DNA of 34,256 nucleotides from Chloroflexaceae bacterium (GTDB lineage Bacteria; Cyanobacteriota; Cyanobacteriia; Cyanobacteriales; JAAUTE01). How positions within the stretch are numbered: position 1 is the first letter of the stretch; every line of letters starts with the position of its first letter. Position numbers and translations under genes: made by a program. The stretch is from positions 1 to 34,256 of the forward strand of contig JAAUTE010000008.1 in assembly GCA_012031815.1 (NCBI GenBank). The letters are read 5' to 3'. Positions 5,437-34,256 of this stretch are shown piece after piece. Under the pieces are notes generated by a model, which ran no database searches, was not told the DNA's origin, and saw only the letters and a list, made by a program, of their open reading frames with translations.

Positions 5437-5499
5437 CAAACCAAGCGTGAGTTATGGCAAACCAAGCGTGAGTCGTGGCAAACCAAGCGTGAGTCGTGG
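5437..5499. repeat. Three tandem 21-bp repeats
   Basis: Three consecutive copies of CAAACCAAGCGTGAGTCGTGG. Copies two and three are identical; the first differs at two positions (TTATGG for TCGTGG). The array lies between the divergent pcyA and tatA genes, upstream of both starts. The unit is a multiple of three and is open in some frames, which produces the artefactual N-terminus of the pcyA ORF in the track. It is a minisatellite; any regulatory role is unknown. Confidence 0.85.
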
Positions 5500-5604
5500 C
5501 AGCTAAAGTTGCGATCGCCCTGCCCAATCCCTGCCAATCCCCCTCCAGGTTAGACTTAGCGCTATACTGGTCAGCGATTTACCTGTAAAGCGAGAGAACC
5601 CCTT

Positions 5605-5865: not shown

Positions 5866-6423
5866 ATGGAAAAACAACTTCTTAGCGCCCTATTGCTGCT
5901 AGGTGTTCTGGGAACCATCCCACCCGCCTGGACTCAGGAGAGCGCTCCCGCCAATCCCACCGAAGCGGCCGCCGATCCCGAAGCTCAGCTCAAAGCCCAA
6001 TTACAGCAACTCCTGGCCCGCGGCCAGCAACAAAATCGCGATCGCCAATCCCAGCAAGCCATCTCCGCCTTCAAACAAGTTCTGGGCCTGTCCCAGCCCT
6101 TGGGCTATCAAGACATGACCGCCGCCGCCTTGATCGGCCTCGGCCGCAGCTACCTCCTCCTCGACAAACCCCAAGAGGCCATTCGTTATTTTGGGCAGGC
6201 CGCTCCCGTTTTCCGCAAAATGAACAACCGCCCAGGGGAAGCCAGTACGTTCTACAGTCTTGGCGCTTCCTACCATCGCCTCGGCGATCGCAACCAAGCG
6301 AGAGATTACTTCAACCAAGCCCTGGAATTGTATCGACAGGCCGAAGACCGTTCCGGCGAAAGCGCGGCTCTCAGCCAACTCCGCGCCCTCGATCGCCCTA
6401 ATCCCACCGTCTCCCAACCTTAA
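5866..6423 (+). CDS. Secreted tetratricopeptide-repeat protein
   Basis: The 185-residue product starts with a clear signal peptide (LLSALLLLGVLGTIPPAWTQ, probable cleavage after AWT). A Gln/Ala-rich linker follows, then about three TPR units between residues 45 and 170, for example ALIGLGRSYLLLDKPQEAI and STFYSLGASYHRLGDRNQA. TPR arrays mediate protein-protein contacts, so it is probably a periplasmic or lumenal scaffold. A strong ribosome site (GGGAGG) precedes the ATG. It may be co-transcribed with tatA. No specific function can be assigned. Confidence 0.85.
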   Translation: MEKQLLSALLLLGVLGTIPPAWTQESAPANPTEAAADPEAQLKAQLQQLLARGQQQNRDRQSQQAISAFKQVLGLSQPLGYQDMTAAALIGLGRSYLLLDKPQEAIRYFGQAAPVFRKMNNRPGEASTFYSLGASYHRLGDRNQARDYFNQALELYRQAEDRSGESAALSQLRALDRPNPTVSQP

Positions 6424-6575
6424 GGCTCCCCTGGGAGTCCCCGAACGCCAGCGACATTAGCGATCGCCGGAATCAAGCCGCCGCCATCGCCAAGCAAGCC
6501 CAGAATGCCGAATTCCAGGGATGAGTTTGGACATATTCCAAGGAGTCAAGACCGCACATCCAGATTAAACGCGGA

Positions 6576-6613
6576 AAAGCGGGAATGCCCTATCCAACAC
6601 TCCCGCTTTATTC
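6576..6613. terminator. Probable bidirectional terminator hairpin
   Basis: AAAGCGGGA at 6576 pairs with TCCCGCTTT at 6601-6609 around a 16-base loop. On the minus strand the stem is followed by TTTT, so it would end the lipoprotein transcript; on the plus strand a weaker TTTATT follows and could serve the TPR gene. The region 6424-6701 otherwise holds no gene that I can support. Confidence 0.55.
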
Positions 6614-6701
6614 TCCTCGGACTAAGCTCAAAAACGACGATCGCCAAAGAGCGCTAGCTCAATTGAACGCGATAGGCCTCCGGCATAACTTCGCTTACCG
6701 C

Positions 6702-6917
6702 CTACTGTCCCGTTCCGCCAGGAACTTCGGTTTCGGGAGGGACTTCTTCTCCCGGTTCAGCATCGGGTGTTACGCCCTCTGCTCCCGTGTCTGGGACGGT
6801 TTCGGTGGGTGTTTCGGTGCCGGGTGCTGTTTCCGTATCCGTCGCGGTGTTGCAAGCGCCCATCACAGTTGCGCCTAAAAGTAAAGTCAGAAATAAAGCG
6901 ATCGCTTTGGGTTGCAT
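6702..6917 (-). CDS. Small Thr/Pro/Glu-rich lipoprotein
   Basis: The track ORF begins at 7034, but ATG at 6917 preceded by AGGAG is the better start. It gives a 71-residue protein with a hydrophobic signal (AIALFLTLLLGATVMGAC) whose Cys fits a lipobox. The mature part is entirely low-complexity, rich in Thr, Glu, Pro and Gly (TETAPGTETPTET), with no recognisable fold. Small acidic lipoproteins like this are common and poorly understood in cyanobacteria. Real-gene status rests on the lipobox and the ribosome site. Confidence 0.65.
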   Translation of the reverse strand: MQPKAIALFLTLLLGATVMGACNTATDTETAPGTETPTETVPDTGAEGVTPDAEPGEEVPPETEVPGGTGQ

Positions 6918-7070
6918 TAGCGTTCTCCTGCAAAGAAGGCTGATTGAATCCTCAAGATACGCAATATTCCCTCCCGGAGATTCTACCTGAAGAACTATTT
7001 TTCTAGGGCGCTTCTGCGGCTGATTTTGCGCCAATCATAGCCTATCTTGGCTATATTCCTCGCTCTGGTT

Positions 7071-7542
7071 TCAAGGCAGTTGAGCCATACATTCCAAAAT
7101 CAAACGTTGATTGATGTCCCCATAGGGTTGAATGGCCAGTGCCCCGCGAAAGGCCAGGATGGCTTCTTGATAGTGACCCAAGGCGGCTCGACACAGCCCA
7201 ACCCCACTGCCAGGCACCAAAATGATGGGGAATAAGTTCAATCACTCGCTCGCAGTCCTGTTGGGAGCGCTCAAACTCTCCTTGGACATAGAAAAGCACC
7301 GCCCGGCGATTCCAGGCTTCCCCAAAATCTGGCAAGGCGGCGATCGCCTCGGTTAAAATCTGCTCGGCCCGATCGAACTCGGCCGCCTCCAGATGACTCT
7401 GAGCGCTTCGCAGAGCTTCCAGCCCGATTAATCCTTTTTGCTCAAACCAAGACTGCCACAGCATTGCCGCAGCGTTGGAGCGGATCGCTTCGTCCGCGCA
7501 TTTGAGGTCTTTGAGCAAGCGCTCGACGAGAATTTCATCCAT
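7071..7542 (-). CDS. Tetratricopeptide-repeat protein (one frameshift)
   Basis: Starting at ATG 7542 (MDEILVERLLKDL), the product has an N-terminal helical part and TPR motifs: HLEAAEFDRAEQILTEAI, EAWNRRAVLFYVQGEFERS and, in the shifted frame, AALGHYQEAILAFRGALAI, ending ILECMAQLP. The frame breaks near 7203-7210 within a GGGG/TT context; removing one base joins the parts into about 156 residues. It lacks a signal peptide, so it is probably cytoplasmic. It lies 40 bases after psb35 on the same strand and may share its transcript, which makes a role in photosystem biogenesis conceivable but unproven. Confidence 0.72.
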
Positions 7543-7582
7543 GACTTGACTCTCCGGCGGCAACCATTGAGCGGCTGCGGGG

Positions 7583-7786
7583 TTAGTCCTGGGATTCGCC
7601 CACGGTGGGATCGACTTTGGGTACGACGTTGGGGCGGTCTTTGTCTTCCCAGCCGACGGGACGCTTGGAATTGTACCAGGCAATGGAACCGATGGTCACC
7701 GCAGCAATAAACCCGATGGCATAAACTGCAATAAAGTATACCGGCAAGCCGCCAGAAGCCGCAGCAGCCTCTAGGAGAATGTACAT
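7583..7786 (-). CDS. psb35: Psb35-like photosystem II assembly membrane protein
   Basis: A 67-residue protein with one membrane helix (PVYFIAVYAIGFIAAVTIGSIAW) followed by the conserved cyanobacterial tail WYNSKRPVGWEDKDRP and an acidic C-terminus. From memory of the family, this matches Psb35, a small protein that stabilises the CP47 assembly module and its associated high-light-inducible proteins in Synechocystis. I cannot run an alignment, so the name is a recognition call. I chose ATG 7786 (MYILLEAAAA) rather than the upstream in-frame ATG of the track because the preceding residues (MFVETEF) look like leader sequence. A TPR gene follows 40 bases downstream. Confidence 0.65.
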   Translation of the reverse strand: MYILLEAAAASGGLPVYFIAVYAIGFIAAVTIGSIAWYNSKRPVGWEDKDRPNVVPKVDPTVGESQD

Positions 7787-7979
7787 AAATTCGGTTTCAA
7801 CAAACAATCTGGGGCTATCTTAGCAGAAATTCCTGGGGGAATCCCCGCTGCTCTCCCAGGAAAAGTTTTAGTTCCATCAATAAAGCGGCGATCGCCACGC
7901 TGGCTTCTCTTTTGGCAAAAGATCCGTCACAATAATAACTAGTCACAAAATTTTCAAGATCTCTCTTTAGGAAGTCATT

Positions 7980-8222
7980 ATGGCGGTCGAGCGGCGCAAG
8001 CAGAGTATTATGGAGCATTTGGCTCGCAGTACCAGCAATTTGAACCTGGTACGCCTGCCTCAAACCCTGGAAGCTTCAAGGGTATCGTCTCGCACAGATG
8101 CCGAAAAAGCTCGTATTATGGATCACCTTTCCCGCAGTGCTGGTCAGTCTAACGTTGTGGGCTTTGCCAGCCAGCAGCGCAAGCAAAAAGTTCTCAATCA
8201 CGCTCAAATCACCAGAGGGTAA
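7980..8222 (+). CDS. Small protein with three copies of a basic helical motif
   Basis: An 80-residue protein of unknown function. It carries one motif three times: ERRKQSIMEHLARS (about residues 4-17), EKARIMDHLSRS (about 42-53) and QRKQKVLNHAQITRG at the C-terminus. The consensus is RK-x-x-I/V-M/L-x-H-L/A. The linkers between copies are polar and low-complexity, so it may be a string of short helices in a disordered chain. There is no signal peptide or membrane segment. The ribosome site is AGGAAG and a strong terminator follows, so it is a single-gene transcript. The overlapping minus-strand ORF 7815-8063 is judged a shadow. Confidence 0.75.
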   Translation: MAVERRKQSIMEHLARSTSNLNLVRLPQTLEASRVSSRTDAEKARIMDHLSRSAGQSNVVGFASQQRKQKVLNHAQITRG

Positions 8223-8254
8223 TTTCCCTTAGCACAGCGTTATGACAATCTCTG

Positions 8255-8286
8255 GAGGGGTTCTGCAAGGAACGCCTCTTTTTTTT
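8255..8286 (+). terminator. Rho-independent terminator
   Basis: GAGGGGTTC pairs with GAACGCCTC (one mismatch) around a six-base loop and is followed by eight T residues. It lies just after the triple-motif protein gene and should end its transcript. Confidence 0.85.
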
Positions 8287-8418
8287 GATTTAAAGATTTG
8301 GTTTGGGGCAGGCGGTGAGCGCCGTGGGAGAGAAATACTCAGGTTTGCTCTTTGCCATACTAAAGATAGAAAATACAATTGACTGTTCATTGAGTCGTTT
8401 TTGAGCAATTTTTAGGTC

Positions 8419-9965
8419 ATGAACCAATCTTTAAGTCCGGCTCTCATTGAGCAGATGAAGCAGCCCAATTTCTATCCCCATGCGGTGCGATCGCTGGAAG
8501 TCTTACAAACCCATGCTTCCTATGTTTTTCTCACCGGGGATTATGCTTACAAGCTTAAAAAAGCGGTTAACTTTGGCTTTTTAGACTATTCAACCCTGGA
8601 AAACGCCGTTTTTTTTGTCAAGAAGAACTGCGCCTTAATCAGGAAATAGCGCCGGATATTTATCTGGAGGTTTTGGTGATTGCGAAAGTCGGGGAAAGGT
8701 TTGTTTTAAATGGTGAAGGGGAGCCAGGGGAATATGTGCTGAAAATGCGGCAATTTCCCCAAGAAGCTCTATTGATTCATCTGTTTGAGCAGGGCAACTT
8801 AGATCGGGCATTAATGGAAGAGCTGGGTCGAGTAACGGCAAAATTCCACGAAAAAGCGGAGACCAATGATTATATTACTAGCTTTGGCACGCCCCAGAGA
8901 ATTCGGCAAGCCTTTGAGCAAAATTACCAACAAACCCAAAAGTATGTGGGTAATCTGCTAACTCAGCAACAGTACGACGAGACGCGAAATTTTACCAATG
9001 ATTTTTTTGAGAAGGTTAATTTATTTCAGCAGCGCCAAATGCAGCAGAGAATTCGGGAATGCCACGGCGACCTGCACTTAAGAAATATTTGTTTCTGGCA
9101 CGATAAAATTCAGCTTTTCGATCGCAGCGAATTTAATGAAGCATTTCGTTTCGTGGATGTCATGTACGATGTGGCGTTTACCGTCATGGATGTGGACGCC
9201 CGCCAGCGATGGGATTTAGGCAATGCCTTTCTTAACACCTACATTGAGCAAACCGGGGATTGGGAGGGATTACAAATCTTGCCGCTGTATTTAAGCCGCC
9301 AGGCCTACGTGCGAGCCAAGGTTAACTCGCTGTTGCTCGACGATCCAGAAATCTCTCCCCAAGACCAACAGCAAGCAGCCCGAATTGCCGCCGATTATTA
9401 CCAGCTTGCCTGGAGCTACGGGCAAAAACGCTCAGGAAAGCTAATTTTGATGTCCGGGCTATCCGGTTCTGGTAAAAGCACCGTTGCTCAAGCCCTCGCC
9501 AGACAAATTAATGGGATTCACCTTCGCTCTGATGCCCTTCGCAAACATCTTGCCAAACTGCCCCTCTACGAGTCCGGCCCTCCATCTCTCTATCGTCCCG
9601 AAATGAGCGATCGCACCTATGAGCGGCTGCTGGAGTTGGGGGAAATGCTGGTACTTTCTGGCTTTTTTGTGATTTTAGACGCCAAATTCGACCGGCGGCA
9701 CTGGCGGGAAAAGGCGATCGCCTTTGCCGAAGCCGAGGGCATTTCCTTACAAATCCTGCATTGCCATGCCCCCCTGTCCGTCTTAGAAAAACGCCTGGTT
9801 CAACGCCAGAATGACATCTCCGACGCCACGCCCCAACTCCTCGCTCAGCAACAAGCCGCAGCCGAACCCTTTAGCGAGGGAGAAAGCCCCTATGTCCGGG
9901 AAGTCGAAACCAACCACCCTGACAGCCAGAATCCCCGCTTTTTAGCCAATCTAGTCGGGCTTTAA
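8419..9965 (+). CDS. Fused APH-like/P-loop kinase protein (AAA family, one frameshift)
   Basis: A two-domain protein of about 515 residues. The N-terminal half resembles the aminoglycoside-phosphotransferase fold: LTGDYAYKLKKAVNFGFLDYSTLE holds the ATP-binding Lys, and CHGDLHLRNICFW is the catalytic loop HGDLHxxN. The C-terminal half is a small kinase with Walker A GLSGSGKST and a distal Arg-rich region (LEKRLVQRQNDISDAT), like gluconate or zeta-type kinases. The substrate is unknown. The frame breaks at the A run 8600-8603; one more A gives LEKRRFFCQEELRLNQEIAPDIY, which joins both track ORFs. The fusion itself is known across bacteria. It does not look like part of an operon. Confidence 0.82.
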
Positions 9966-12140
<2,175 letters not shown>

Positions 12141-19193: not shown

Positions 19194-19869
19194 ATGGTAA
19201 AAATGAATCGGCTCTCACCAACACCTATGGATACTACCGCTCTCATTTCACCGCCTTTCTCCCCCCCCAGACTTCACCACTGCGCCCCTCATCTTAGGGA
19301 TTCTCGCTTCCGGGCAAGGGAGCAATTTTGCAGCGATCGCCACAGCCATTGCCACGGGCCAGCTCAATGCCCAGATTGCCGTTGCCATTTATAATCGCCC
19401 TGAAGCGCAAATCAAGCAAAAAGCCGAAGCTTGTCAGGTTCCAGCGGTGTTTATCGACCATCGCGCCTACGATACTCGCCCAGCTTGCGATCGGGCCATT
19501 GTTGAGGTCTTACAACGGTATAGAGTTGAACTCGTCGTTATGGCGGGATGGATGCGCATTGTCACCCCCGTTCTCCTGGAGACTTTTCCCCATCGCATCC
19601 TCAACATTCACCCTAGTTTGTTGCCCAGTTTTCGGGGGTTGAAGGCCATAGAACAAGCGTTAGAGGCTGGGGTTAAGATTTCCGGCTGCACGGTGCATCT
19701 GGTCAGCGAAGCAGTCGATAGCGGCCCGATTTTGCTGCAAGCAGCGGTTCCCGTCCTCCCCGACGACACCCCAGCAACTCTCCATGCCCGCATTCAAGAG
19801 CAGGAGCATCACCTGCTGCCCCAGGGCATTACCCACATGATGCAACGTTTACGCGGGAAATTGGGCTAG
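19194..19869 (+). CDS. purN: Phosphoribosylglycinamide formyltransferase (frameshift near the start)
   Basis: Transfers a formyl group from 10-formyl-tetrahydrofolate to GAR in step three of purine synthesis. The catalytic signature is complete: phosphate loop LASGQGSNF, Asn and His in RILNIHPSLLPSF, and the Asp in SEAVDSGPILLQ. A run of eight C at 19261-19268 must be seven to join the start (MVKMNRLSPTPMDTT) with PLILGILASGQGSN. The N-terminal extension ahead of the domain is usual in cyanobacteria, so the start could also be 19203 or 19227. The product is about 224 residues. Its 3' end overlaps the convergent glycosyltransferase gene by 21 bases. Confidence 0.93.
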
Positions 19870-21116
19870 GATACGGACATATTGAGCGGCCACATCTTCC
19901 CAGCGCCAATGACCAAAGCGCTCCTGAATTTGTTCAGGGGAGAGCTTACCCGGCGGCTCCAACAACACCCGCTTCATGCACGCGGCTAAAGCCCCTACGT
20001 CTCCGGGCGCAAACAACTGAACGCGATCGCCACAGCGGTATAGCTCCACCTGTTCCCGTAGCACCGGCAAATCAGAGGCAATCACGGGCTGGCCGCGGAC
20101 GATCGCCTCCGATAGGGCAAAACCAAAGCCTTCAAACCTGGAGGGAAAAACAACGCCAGCACAAGTTGCGTAGAGCTTTTCCACGACTTCCCCATCGCAG
20201 TACCCTAATCCCTCAAAGTGCTCCGCAAAAAAGTCAGGATGAGCTTGATAGAGGGCTTCGAGTCGCTCCACGTAGTCTTGATGTTCAGGGAGCTTGGACT
20301 GTTCCGGCAGGTCAAATTCGCCCCGACTCAGTTGGTCGGTGTTTCTACCCGTCAGGACGACTTTAAAGTTAAACCCAGCTTGCCACAATTGCACGCTGGC
20401 TTGAATTAAGGTGAGGTGGTCTTTATAGAGGCTGTAGGCCGAGGGGAAATAGAAAAAAGGAACATCACTGGGGTCGGCTGCGACGAGGAGGTGCTGCCGA
20501 CCCAAAAACCCTGATAGGGGAACGCTCTCGATCTTGGCGGCAAAATCCGGGAATAATGAGAGAATATCCTGGCGGTTACTTTCAGAAATAGAAAACACTA
20601 CATCCGCCTGCTCCAGCCAGTCCAAGAGGCTGCGATCGTATTCCTGCACCAGGGATTCGGGATAGGTGAGGGGAGCAAAATGCCAGAAGAGATCGTAGGA
20701 AATCATGGCTAGGGGGATCTCAAGGCGAGGCGGCACAATCCGATTGGCAATGCCGTAGAGGCAGTGGGTGGCTTGATGTTTGTCGATGAGGTGGCGTAAC
20801 AGCGCTTCGTAGCGATAATTTTCGTTATATTGGCTGAGCTGGCTGTGTAATTGCTTAAAATTAAGTTTCTTAAGGAGGGTTGCCCTTTGCTAAAAACAGC
20901 CGAAATTTTGGACTGGGGCAAGGTGGCAGGCAGCCGGGAAACTTCGTAAACCAGGGACTCACACTCAGGCAGTTGGGGACGAAAATACTCAAGTTGTTTG
21001 GGGGAGACAATGAGTATCACTCGCTCAACCTGTCGGGCCAGTTCGCTCAACAGGCAAATCAGCACGCGCTCGACTCCACCGTAGCGAGAATATTTAATGG
21101 GCACAATCAACCGCAT
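19849..21116 (-). CDS. GT4-type glycosyltransferase (one frameshift)
   Basis: Retaining GT-B glycosyltransferase, probably of family GT4. The N-terminal half starts MRLIVPIKYSRYGGVERVL with the glycine loop YGGVERV. The C-terminal half carries VVLTGRN, the nucleotide-sugar site PSRFEGFGFALSEAIVRGQPVIASDLPVLRE (EGFG...E motif). The two track ORFs join when GGG at 20883-20885 (plus CCC) becomes GGGG, giving AVFSKGATLLKKLNFKQL and a protein of about 422 residues. Substrate and product are unknown; a role in surface polysaccharide or protein glycosylation is likely. It is divergent from a second glycosyltransferase. Confidence 0.85.
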
Positions 21117-21339
21117 AGGCTTAGCAACTATCGCGATCGGGTTAAACAGCTCAGCACTGCTCCGGGATGGGCAAGGGCACCAGAGTCCTCATTTTACCAC
21201 CCCCGGGTGGGGAACCTTGAGGTTTGTGGGGATCAGGAAGGGCGATCGCGAAGGTTGTCCCTGGGAATTGATTTGATCAACCCAGATCGCCATGTTATAA
21301 ATTAGAGCAACTCAAGGTTAAGGATAATTTGGGCAACAG
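21117..21339. promoter_or_regulatory. Divergent promoter region of the two glycosyltransferase genes
   Basis: This 223-base gap must contain both promoters. It includes the GC-rich inverted repeat CCACCC-CC-GGGTGG at 21197-21210. GGGCAACAG just before 21340 may act as ribosome site for the rightward gene. No gene is seen. Confidence 0.35.
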
Positions 21340-22487
21340 ATGAGCAATAATCCTCATGATAACGGCAAAAAATCCATTGCAATTTATTGTCCAACCTTTT
21401 CGGGAGGAGGGGCAGAAGCGGTTTGCCTGTGGATTTTAGAAGCGTTGGCTGGCCACTATAATTTGACTTTATTTACGATTGTTCCCATCGATCTCGACAA
21501 GATTAATACCATGTATGGTACACAGCTTTCTCCGGAAAAAGTGACCGTCAGGTTTCATTATCCTGCCTGGGCAAAATCAGTGATTAATTGGCTGGTGGCT
21601 AATAATAATGACCGTAAAAGCTGGGCCCGCCATCTGGTACTGCGGGATGTCAAACAAAAGGCCGAGGACTTTGATCTGTGCTTTTCTGCCTATAATGCCG
21701 TCGATTTTGGTCGTCCTGGGATGCAATATCTCCATTATATCCGGGTAGTGGACGATCGCAGTCGTTTTTATACCCTTTCAGACTTTTCTGAAGCGGGAAT
21801 TAAAGACAATGTTTCGATTGTCAATTCGGAGTTTGTGGCGGAGGCGGCCCGGCAGGAATACGGGGTTGACTCCCTGGTGATCTACCCGCCGGTAGACGTG
21901 GAAGTCACGCCCTTGCCTTGGGAAAAAAAGAAAATGCCTTTATTTGTAGCGGTCGTTTAACCGATGCCAAAGCCCCCCATCGCGTGATTAACATCCTCAA
22001 AGCGGTGCGCGATCGCGGATTTCCTGTGAAGCTTTATTTAACCGGCGGCGGTGGTGGACTTTATGGCTGGAAATACCTGCGATTTCTCAAACAAATGGTG
22101 TCTAAAAACCGCGATTGGGTGAATCTCTACCAAAATTTGAGCTACCGAGATTATTTGACCTTAATGTCCCGCTGTCGCTACGGCATTCATTTCAAGCGAG
22201 AACCCTTTGGGATTTCCGTGGCCGAAATGCTCAAATCCGATGCTATTCCCTTTGTGCGCTTCAAGGGTGGCCAGCTAGAAATTGTCGGTAAACACAACCA
22301 AGATTTAATTTTTTACGATGAAGCTGAAGCCATCGAAAAAATTGTCAGCGTCCTGAGCGATCCCGTCCGACAACAGCAACTTCGCACCTCCCTCCATCAA
22401 CAAAAACCGCTGTTCACGCGGGAAAAATTTATTGGCGATATTCAAGAGATTGTTGCCCATTATTTCGCCGATCGCCCTCAAGCTTAA
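21340..22487 (+). CDS. GT4-type glycosyltransferase (one frameshift)
   Basis: A second GT-B glycosyltransferase. The N-terminal domain has the glycine loop YCPTFSGGGAEAVCLWILEAL and later NSEFVAEAARQEYGV; the C-terminal domain reads ICSGRLTDAKAPHRVINIL, VKLYLTGGGG and FKREPFGISVAEML, which is the EPFG...E nucleotide-sugar motif. The frame breaks at the A run 21923-21929; eight A instead of seven reads WEKKENAFICSGRL and gives about 382 residues. It has no signal peptide. It lies divergently to the other glycosyltransferase, so the pair may act in one glycan pathway. The acceptor is unknown. Confidence 0.85.
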
Positions 22488-26927: not shown

Positions 26928-28257
26928 TCAACTCTTGGTATGTTGGCCGGGGCCAGCCACCAGGGGAGGCAAGGCCAGCCCGGACAGTTGGGGCGCAATA
27001 ATGGCTTGGGGGCCTACCAGGGAAACGTAGGGTTGTTGCAGATACTGGGCGGCGATCGCCTGGGCTTGGGGGGCCGTAACTGCGGCGATGCGGGCTTGAA
27101 ACTCCTGATCGAAATCGATGCCCAATCCGAGGGTTTCGTACCAGCCATAAACCTGGGCAATTTCGGCATTGGTTTGCTTGCCCAAGGCGTACTGGCCGAG
27201 CAGTTTATTTTTAGCCCCTTGCCATTCCAAGGGTTCCAGGACTTCCTCGACTAAGCGTTCTACTTCCCGGCGCAAACTGGCGATCGCGATTTCCGTATTT
27301 TGAGGTGCGGTTCCCAAATAGACCACAAACTGAGAGCGATCGAGGCGGGTGGGATAAAAAGCAGAAACATCGTAAGCTAAGCCCTGTTTTTCCCGGAGTT
27401 CCACAAATAAGCGACTAGAGAGTCCATTTCCCAGATAACTACTCAGCAGCTTCAACGTGGGATAGTCAGGGCTAGTTGCCTCTGGTGCCAAATAAGCCAG
27501 CATCACAATGGCCTGCTGACTGTCGCGATCGACGAAACTGGTTTGGGGCTGGGAGCACAGGGGCGGTAGGGTGAGGGCAGGGGGTGGCGTAAGGGGAGCG
27601 GGCCAGTCCCCCAAGGTGGCTCCCACTAACTGAACTGCCTCAGCAAAGCGAATGCGCCCGGATAGGCTCACAATCAGACAATCGGGCCGAAAATGGCGGG
27701 CATGATAGGCTATCAGGTCAGCAGGCGTGAGATTGGCGACGGTTTCAGGGGTTCCCAGGATGGAAACGCCGTAGGGGTGGGGGCCGTACATTACCTGACG
27801 CAAGCGTTCAAAGGCAACGTTAAAGGGCTGTTCCTGCTGAGAGCGGATTGCTTGTAGGGTCAGGGTTTTTTCCCGATTCACCTCGCCTTCGGGAAAACTG
27901 GGCGATCGCAAAATTTGGGCAGCTAAACCGAGGATCGCCCCAAAGTCTGCCGTGACGGTTTTAAAAGATAGGAGAAAAATAGTCAGCCGTGCTGTCGGTA
28001 CTCAAGCTTGCTCCCAGCGACTCTACCTGTTCGGCAATTTCCAGGGCGCTGAGGTGAGTGGTTCCCTTGGTGGCCGTGGCCGCTAACAGGTGGGTCAAAC
28101 CCGCTTGATGGGGCGCTTCCCACCGACCTCCCGCTTCGCGCAAAAACAAACGTCCCGAAATAATATCGGCCGCCGGATTTTCTACAACAATCAGGGTAAT
28201 ACCGTTGTCGAGAACTCGGCGCTGCACGAGTTGGGGCAGAGAAGTCGTTGTACTCAT
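26928..28257 (-). CDS. M16 peptidase homologue lacking the zinc motif (one frameshift)
   Basis: Insulinase-like protein of about 442 residues after repair. At the usual HxxEH site it reads GLTHLLAATATKGT, so the zinc-binding Glu and second His are missing, while ALEIAEQVESLGASLSTDSTADYF and the glycine-rich loop SSYLGNGLSSRLFVELREKQGLAYDVSAFY are kept. This marks the non-catalytic subunit of M16 pairs, which contributes substrate-binding Arg/Tyr residues. Its active partner is not beside it in this window. The frame breaks at the A run 27975-27979; one base fewer gives DYFLLSFKTVTADFGAIL. It may act in processing of exported peptides, by family only. Confidence 0.83.
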
Positions 28258-28864: not shown

Positions 28865-29146
28865 GGATAAATCTCAGCCCATAATTCCTGGTATTAGGTT
28901 AGCCAATTCTGGGGACTTGGAATATAAACTATTTTTACGGCGATCTCAAGGGCTGGACTGCTTTAAAATCCGAAACTAATTCGCAAATTACCTCTAAATT
29001 GCGGTTCAGTTCTGCTTTGTTCAAACTCGCAGAACGATTGAGTTCCGGCGTAACTTTCCTGCAAATAGGGATTTCTAGCGTTTTTTGGAGAAGAGGTCTG
29101 TTAAGATCAGTTGCTGATGATAAAAGCCCCCTGGAAAGAAGGAATA
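28865..29146 (+). promoter_or_regulatory. Upstream region of the peptide cassette
   Basis: No gene that I support. The 3' part holds TGTTAAGAT (about 29099) as a possible -10 element and AAGAAGGA just before the GTG of the precursor as ribosome site. An in-frame ATG at 29117 could extend the precursor by ten residues. The plus ORF 28999-29217 overlaps the precursor in another frame and is taken as a shadow. Confidence 0.35.
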
Positions 29147-29290
29147 GTGAATCAAAGCAATACGCAACCCAAAAAGCCTTACCGTCAGCCTCAATTGACC
29201 AAATACGGGAGTATTAACATGTTGACTCTGGAAAACGGGATGTTAGGAAGAGTTGACAACCTTGTAACGATGACTATGGCGCTATCTTAA
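29147..29290 (+). CDS. RiPP precursor peptide with lasso-type leader
   Basis: A 47-residue peptide, too short for the ORF track. Residues 10-27 (KPYRQPQLTKYGSINMLT) match the lasso leader rule YxxPxL-x3-G-x5-T exactly: Tyr12, Pro15, Leu17, Gly21, Thr27. In lasso precursors the Tyr/Pro/Leu part is bound by the RRE protein B1 and the Thr is the penultimate leader residue. By that rule the core starts at residue 29 (ENGMLGRVDNLVTMTMALS), with Asp at core position 9 and one Arg at position 7. GTG 29147 has the best ribosome site (AAGAAGGA); ATG 29117 is an in-frame alternative. Four bases separate it from the RRE-methyltransferase gene. Confidence 0.82.
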   Translation: MNQSNTQPKKPYRQPQLTKYGSINMLTLENGMLGRVDNLVTMTMALS

Positions 29291-29294
29291 GTTT

Positions 29295-30497
29295 GTGCTA
29301 AACCCCAACACTAAACTGCACCGATCGCCAAATCTCCAGATTCAACTGAGCAGCCCTGACACGGTTGAGATTATGCGTGGGGCGACGGTTGTTAATGGCG
29401 GGCCCCATGCTTTAGCCATTCTGCATATTTTTGCTCGTCCAACGACGCTTAGAGATGCTCTTGACTCTTTAGCCCAGGGAGTGCGCGGCTCCCAGGACTG
29501 GATAAATCTCACGACAGCCTTATCCTATCTTTACCAGACGGGCATACTTGAGGATGACAGCCGCGATCAAAGACCGCTCCTAGATACAACCGGGTTTGGC
29601 GCCGCCCCAATCCACTTGGAAATGCTCAACGATCGCCAGCGCACAAGCTGTTTTCTGGCCGCCATTGCTGAAGTTGTCCGTCCGGGGGATGTGGTCGTCG
29701 ATATTGGCACGGGAACCGGGGTGTTGGCGATCGCGGCGGTTCGGGCGGGGGCGAAACGGGTTTATGCTATTGAATCCACTGCCATGGCCAGCGTTGCGGC
29801 GGCAATTATTGCGGCTAACGGCTGCTCCGAGCAGATTACCTTGATTTCCGGCTGGTCAACCCAAGTGGAGCTGCCAGAGCGCGGCGACGTACTCACCAGC
29901 GAAATCATCGGCAATGACCCCTTGGGCGAACAAGTTTTAGAAACCACGGCAGATGCGCGGCAACGACTGCTCAAGCTCAACCCGCGCCTTCTTCCCCAGC
30001 AGCTCGCTATCTACGCATTGCCCCTCACTCTCCCCCCAGACGAATGGGCGCGACGCGTGGTTACTTCAGAAACCCTGGACAATTGGCGATCGTGGTACGG
30101 CATGGATTTTGCCGAATTAGCGGCGGCTCAGTCGGCTTCAGCGACGGTCTTTTATTTGCCGCCCCACCGCACTCAAACCTGGCCCGTTCTTAGCGATCCC
30201 ATCTTACTTGCAAAAATTGACTTAAATCAAGCTGAACGTTACCTGAACTGTACTTCTACGGCTTTTGCGACAACTTCAGGGCATTTAGACGCTATTCTGA
30301 TTTATTTTGAATTGCAGCTCAGTCCTACCGTCTCCCTATCCACTCGCCCCGGCCAGGCATCATCCGACTGCTCTTGGCGCTGTCCCCTTTGGTTGCTGGG
30401 CCACTCTCTTTTCCTGCAAGCCCAAGAATCATTCCAGGTTACCTATCGCTATGGAATTGGCCGCCAAGGCAACCTTGTTCAAGTTTCCCGACCATAG
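29295..30497 (+). CDS. RRE domain fused to PRMT-like methyltransferase
   Basis: A 400-residue fusion. Residues about 10-92 (PNLQIQLSSPDTVEIMRG, ALAILHIFARPTTLRDALDSLAQGV, INLTTALSYLYQTGILED) fit the PqqD-like RiPP recognition element: a beta part then a winged helix. Residues about 130-250 are a class I SAM methyltransferase: motif I VVVDIGTGTGVLAIAAVRAG, acidic KRVYAIE, and SEIIGNDPLGEQVLETT, which aligns with the double-E loop SExMGxxLxxExML of protein arginine methyltransferases. LLPQQLAIYALPL and a beta-rich C-terminus follow, also PRMT-like. I infer that it binds the leader of the peptide encoded four bases upstream and methylates its Arg. Start GTG 29295. Confidence 0.83.
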   Translation: MLNPNTKLHRSPNLQIQLSSPDTVEIMRGATVVNGGPHALAILHIFARPTTLRDALDSLAQGVRGSQDWINLTTALSYLYQTGILEDDSRDQRPLLDTTGFGAAPIHLEMLNDRQRTSCFLAAIAEVVRPGDVVVDIGTGTGVLAIAAVRAGAKRVYAIESTAMASVAAAIIAANGCSEQITLISGWSTQVELPERGDVLTSEIIGNDPLGEQVLETTADARQRLLKLNPRLLPQQLAIYALPLTLPPDEWARRVVTSETLDNWRSWYGMDFAELAAAQSASATVFYLPPHRTQTWPVLSDPILLAKIDLNQAERYLNCTSTAFATTSGHLDAILIYFELQLSPTVSLSTRPGQASSDCSWRCPLWLLGHSLFLQAQESFQVTYRYGIGRQGNLVQVSRP

Positions 30498-34150: not shown

Positions 34151-34256
34151 CCCACCAGATCCCTTGGGCCGCACGCCAGGTTTCCTTGGCGACCCATCAG
34201 GTTTCCTTGGCGACCCATCAGGTTTCCTTGGCGACCCATCAGGTTTCCTTGGCGAC
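34151..34256. repeat. 21-bp minisatellite array reaching the window edge
   Basis: GGTTTCCTTGGCGACCCATCA repeats perfectly from 34179 (copies at 34179, 34200, 34221 and a partial at 34242) and continues past the window end. Two diverged units precede it (34151-34178). All three plus-strand frames are open within the array (for example GFLGDPS), but no start codon or ribosome site supports translation. There are no unique spacers, so it is not a CRISPR array. Confidence 0.92.

Follow-up and report, generated by a model that had tools for sequence, protein, structure and literature searches.

A putative lasso peptide precursor paired with a PRMT-type methyltransferase carrying a predicted RiPP recognition element, and a lasso cluster on another contig of the same cyanobacterial genome

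Does the 47-codon ORF that begins at 29147 of the window (the whole 34,256-nt stretch analysed) encode a lasso peptide, which of its residues would the methyltransferase encoded just behind it modify, and which enzymes would mature it? Direct reading agrees with the first-pass annotation: a GTG at 29147 opens 47 codons, a TAA at 29288-29290 closes them, and Thr27, Glu29, Arg35 and Asp37 fall where they had been placed. The product consists of the leader (M)NQSNTQPKKPYRQPQLTKYGSINMLTL followed directly by the core ENGMLGRVDNLVTMTMALS. Lasso leaders carry Y at -17, P at -14, L at -12 and T at -2 (PMC10368454). Here, Y, P, L, G and T are found at -17, -14, -12, -8 and -2, respectively, with Thr27 as the penultimate leader residue. 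By the lasso counting rule, the leader ends at Leu28, and Glu29 becomes core position 1. The YxxPxL motif at -17 to -12 and the Thr (rarely Ile or Val) at -2 that characterize lasso precursors are therefore both present, and Asp37, at core 9, lies within the core 7-9 range of Asp/Glu ring acceptors. Arg35 is the only Arg of a core without Lys and thus its only basic residue.

Table 1. Features of the window and of the lasso cluster on contig C120
Feature	Position	Strand	Basis
Shine-Dalgarno-like AGAAGGA ahead of the GTG start	29137..29143	+	direct reading
Lasso precursor gene (probable), 47 aa, GTG start, TAA stop	29147..29290	+	direct reading, profile, NCBIfam lasso_cyano 19 bits
Leader, residues 1-28, Y12 P15 L17 G21 T27	29147..29230	+	sequence; spacing per PMC10368454 and 20-sequence alignment
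Core ENGMLGRVDNLVTMTMALS, 19 aa	29231..29287	+	sequence; comparison with 30 relatives
Arg35 (core 7), proposed methylation site	29249..29251	+	sole core Arg, zero core Lys; position not conserved
Asp37 (core 9), proposed macrolactam acceptor	29255..29257	+	first acidic residue past position 1; aligned Asp
RRE-PRMT fusion methyltransferase (RRE predicted), 400 aa, GTG start	29295..30497	+	4 nt past precursor stop
N-terminal domain, residues 1-90, predicted RiPP recognition element (RRE)	29295..29564	+	predicted fold, Foldseek
PRMT domain, residues 105-400, SAM motif VDIGTGTG	29607..30494	+	PDB sequence matches, PRMT_C
Double-E loop, Glu203 and Glu212	29901..29930	+	alignment to PRMT 5eku E172/E181
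C120 (locus L033) precursor	5947-6147		
C120 (L033) C	6190-8048		
C120 (L033) methyltransferase	8069-9208		
C120 (L033) kinase	9178-10180		
C120 (L033) B2	10258-10920		
C120 (L033) B1	10727-11059		

The motif Y..P.L...G.....T, combined with an Asp at core 8-10, occurred once in the six frames of the window, compared with 0.01 occurrences in shuffles. Related precursors were collected from ORFs adjoining related methyltransferases in cyanobacteria and in genomes from the order and the phylum to which G439 belongs, a Gemmatimonadaceae bacterium whose genome carries the methyltransferase locus L032. A profile of 19 other precursors, with the window sequence excluded, matched the ORF at E 4.4e-10, with E 4.7 for the runner-up among 438 ORFs; the value was E 5.2e-9 when the precursor of the lasso cluster on contig C120 of the same genome was also omitted. 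The E value of 1.9e-13 from the A6 profile, which includes the window sequence, arises by construction, and the leave-out value is the one to use. A core-only profile gave no significant match, which is unsurprising for so short and variable a stretch. The precursor scored 19 bits with NCBIfam lasso_cyano and 13.2 bits with lasso_leader_L3, below the cut-offs of 33 and 19 bits, respectively; the C120 precursor likewise stays under the lasso_cyano cut-off (20.6 bits), though it lies within a complete lasso cluster. Promoter and terminator signals were at background level only, and an Rfam search returned no RNA family. Leader spacing and the leave-out profile bear out the earlier reading of a lasso-type leader with an Asp at core 9, and on this sequence evidence the ORF very probably encodes a lasso precursor. 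A lasso topology of the mature product is favoured as well, with distinctly less assurance. The precursor shares its leader signature and acidic core 9 with lasso peptides made by B1/B2/C systems (TbiA/TbiB1, paeninodin and BsfA; lasso_cyano NF033528), and B1, B2 and C are present in its genome. Unlike in the TbiA/TbiB1, paeninodin and BsfA systems, it lies away from the B and C genes, begins its core with Glu and neighbours an RRE-PRMT, and unlike the NF033528 family it scores below the curated cut-off.

Invariance among relatives had been raised for both Arg35 and Asp37, and it was found for the latter: the Asp aligned with Asp37 is invariant in the 20-sequence alignment, and across the family no core position except the ring Asp comes close to invariance. 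Core 7 is Arg in only 3/30 related precursors (Lys in 5/30), so the conservation argument for Arg35 fails and Arg was rejected as a conserved hallmark. The acidic residue at the ring position stands at core 9 in 12 of these precursors, core 10 in 16 and core 11 in 2. Glu at position 1, rightly flagged at first pass as atypical, occurs in 0/30. Additionally, nearly all relatives have [KR][TS] near the C-terminus and the window precursor does not; the idea that the core runs on in a different frame and so regains a [KR]T tail was rejected, as inspection by eye of the other frames gave none. No close homolog of the precursor was found in the searched set. A plasmid search found no relative of it and gave only weak and partial matches to the methyltransferase.

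Counted from Y(-17)/T(-2), a ring Asp at core 10 (16/30) or 11 (2/30) exceeds the 7-9 of known lasso peptides. For such precursors (L034-L043, L087-L096, L138 and L139), this means either a leader extended by one residue or a ring of greater size. Separately, genome G947 encodes several near-identical lasso-like precursors (L153, L154 and L156) with KCSGSGDVRTVQELSPNYSTDCP cores and one Arg each. Some of the lasso-like precursors of G947 have no B or C gene within 1.5 kb, and this genome also carries the RRE-PRMT L135.

The methyltransferase is probably co-transcribed with the precursor. Nearly all of the PDB sequence matches shown for residues 105-400 were named PRMTs (best E 1.8e-23), and PRMT_C scored 24.3 bits, under its 27-bit cut-off. 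Sequence similarity, the SAM motif and the double-E loop together mark the domain as a PRMT. The double-E loop of PRMTs holds the arginine guanidinium. The enzyme resembles eukaryotic-type PRMTs (PRMT7/6/1) in its SAM fold, the IHxxMLxD...RT start, the SE...GE double-E loop and the C-terminal barrel region; unlike them, it has a predicted RRE at its N-terminus and an adjacent RiPP precursor.

Specifically, the N-terminal domain was modelled as β-β-β-(β)-α-α-α with a pLDDT of about 80, the PqqD-like order of three strands and then three helices that defines an RRE. Pfam gave no match to residues 1-90, PqqD included, and a PDB sequence search with this domain gave none. In a Foldseek search against the PDB, the best 25 matches were all RiPP-biosynthesis proteins (TigE, TruD-type heterocyclases, ThcOx, TbiB1 with leader, MccB, PqqD and PbtF), known RREs included, with E 0.005-0.07 and probability 0.98-1.00; for the RRE matches overall, E was 0.005-0.1 and probability 0.9-1.0. 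A profile comparison with lasso B1 was weak and spanned the domain. The full-length model was of low confidence (mean pLDDT 54) and too poor for use. Because of the predicted fold, the RiPP matches from Foldseek and the weak B1 profile match, the domain is likely an RRE fused to the PRMT.

In many lasso clusters of cyanobacteria and Gemmatimonad-related genomes (L033-L045 and L086-L102), B1/B2/C occur together with an HPr-type kinase and a PRMT-like methyltransferase that has [SE]D[LV]RG in the double-E loop; the precursors nearly all end in a [KR][TS] motif. The cluster-type enzymes (C120, L033:8069-9208; cyanobacterial and Gemmatimonad) share the PRMT-like fold and the lasso association with the window enzyme. 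However, in most of them [SE]D[LV]RG stands in place of the SEIIG..GE of the window enzyme and the N-terminal domain is missing; the cluster type also has an extra C-terminal region of about 60-100 aa and falls in a separate clade. The tree places the window enzyme with L032, L135 and L136 in a single clade (100/96) that excludes the C120 enzyme, and tree and loop motif together led us to reject the window gene as a duplicate of the C120 gene. Within this analysis, the other clade members came only from genomes of another phylum. The window enzyme is about 39% identical to L032, its catalytic residues are intact, and both enzymes keep Glu203 and Glu212; the N-terminal domain is also present in L032 and L135. 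No lasso precursor was seen adjoining L032, L135 or L136. A search of 391 genomes from the order of the window's genome turned up no further enzyme of the window type, and no other precursor/RRE-PRMT pair was found in the genomes searched. B2 is present in the genomes of L032, L135 and L136. Because 48/101 genomes of that phylum match B2, its co-occurrence with an RRE-PRMT is not telling and was rejected as evidence.

The first-pass annotation pointed to Arg35 as the residue to be methylated, and this remains plausible because the neighbouring PRMT retains the two glutamates of the loop and is predicted to have a domain that binds leaders; what did not hold was the invariance of the residue. 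We rate Arg as the methyl acceptor at even chances. The strongest competitor, a less likely reading, keeps in-trans lasso maturation and sends the methyl group to the C-terminal carboxylate, the Asp side chain or the N-terminus. The lasso methylations described in the available text of PMC9266682 are C-terminal esters (StspM and LasF) and a PIMT-type modification of Asp6. This reading also draws on the variability of core 7 and on PRMT-fold enzymes without a double-E loop in many lasso clusters; in the cores of those clusters, it is the ring Asp that is conserved. Against it, the window enzyme, unlike the cluster type, retains both guanidinium-holding glutamates of PRMTs, and the known lasso carboxyl methyltransferases belong to other families.

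B or C genes are usual, not required, beside a lasso precursor, and none was found in the 34-kb window. The first-pass annotation had allowed for a cyclase encoded elsewhere, and the genome search confirmed one: the genome has a single B2 match, and contig C120 carries B1, B2 and C. B (B1+B2) and C are thus available on another contig, with the C frame split in the assembly. One frameshift splits each of the C120 C (cyclase) and kinase genes. Genes at 19849-22487 and 26928-28257 of the window (glycosyltransferase-like and M16 peptidase-like ORFs) look split too. Because several other genes look split, indel errors in the assembly are likely, and the C120 frameshifts are probably sequence errors and possibly real decay. 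Only two lasso-precursor matches were found in the whole genome, the window ORF and the C120 ORF. Their cores agree at five of the first 11 residues (N2, M4, G6, D9 and N10; permutation p 0.002), and their Thr-to-Asp spacing is identical, which fits one enzyme set serving both. Maturation of the window precursor in trans by the C120 enzymes appears somewhat more probable than not.

The first-pass annotation had left open a linear methylated peptide or a lasso with a remote cyclase. The lasso with remote enzymes stood up better. A linear RiPP, with the leader removed and no ring formed, or a product made without the C120 enzymes, would suit the absence of B and C genes from the window, the unusual Glu1 and the capacity of a predicted RRE-bearing modifying enzyme to define its own RiPP class. 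It is improbable because the leader has the full lasso protease motif, including T(-2), and the ring Asp, here at 9, is nearly invariant; moreover, the core resembles that of the C120 precursor, and the lasso machinery is in the same genome. It is just as improbable that the pair makes no product and is what remains of a lasso cluster that decayed or was transferred in part, an idea suggested by its isolation from the full cluster and by a methyltransferase clade otherwise known here only from another phylum, but opposed by two open frames with a start, a Shine-Dalgarno sequence and 4-nt spacing, and by catalytic residues intact at this distance from L032.

The HIP1 signature of cyanobacteria, GCGATCGC, occurs 55 times in the window against 0.6 expected, once inside the methyltransferase gene (at 29727), which fits a resident cyanobacterial locus. 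Perfect or near-perfect 21-bp tandem repeat arrays lie at 5437-5501 and 34177-34256, the latter reaching the window end.

For a lasso matured by the C120 enzymes, the following order of events is proposed. The predicted RRE would bind the YxxPxL leader, and the PRMT domain would N-methylate the guanidinium of Arg35 on the linear precursor. C120 B1 and B2 would then cut the leader off after Leu28 in trans, and C120 C would link the amine of Glu29 with the side chain of Asp37 to close a ring of nine residues. The lasso tailoring enzymes StspM, ThcoK and MslH likewise work on the linear precursor (PMC8498205). The scheme builds on the precursor signature, the 4-nt adjacency, the PRMT active-site residues and the genomic lasso set. 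The rarity of Arg at core 7, Glu1, the missing [KR][TS] tail, the split C120 C and kinase frames, the lack of a precursor beside L032 and L135, the Foldseek E values and the low-confidence full-length model all count against it. As a whole, from methylation of Arg35 to ring closure in trans, we consider it evenly poised between right and wrong. More tentatively still, the RRE-PRMT may be dedicated to this orphan precursor and may place an N-methylarginine in the ring before cutting and closure by the enzymes of a separate cluster.

The lasso tailoring listed in the reviews, as far as their available text goes, comprises C-terminal methyl esters, phosphorylation, acetylation, citrullination, epimerisation and aspartimide; for methylation, that text of PMC8498205 and PMC9266682 gives C-terminal and Asp sites only, with no arginine N-methylation. 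A search of the open-access literature for lasso peptides or RiPPs with an arginine methyltransferase found no relevant paper, an absence that is not proof, and the pairing of a lasso precursor with an RRE-PRMT appears not to have been reported so far. In the lassomycin/StspM and cellulonodin-2/lihuanodin systems, as presented in the accessible part of PMC9266682, a methyltransferase likewise tailors a lasso precursor or lasso. Those enzymes are encoded within the lasso cluster and methylate either the C-terminal carboxyl group or, for the PIMT type, Asp, whereas the window enzyme is a double-E PRMT with a predicted RRE outside it. Citrulassin with its remote peptidyl arginine deiminase (same part of PMC9266682) is similar in that a lasso Arg is modified, as proposed here, and part of the pathway is remote. 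For citrulassin, it is the tailoring enzyme, which deiminates Arg, that is encoded at a distance; for the window precursor, the tailoring enzyme is next door and the core machinery is the distant part.

If true, the proposal would extend the known lasso modifications by one and reveal a lasso pathway that is split and operates in trans. An RRE-PRMT fusion would make the methylation of arginine in leader-tagged peptides genetically portable. Meanwhile, an orphan precursor and a separate lasso cluster in one genome make in-trans lasso maturation testable, and this matters because mining that starts from B and C genes misses such precursors.
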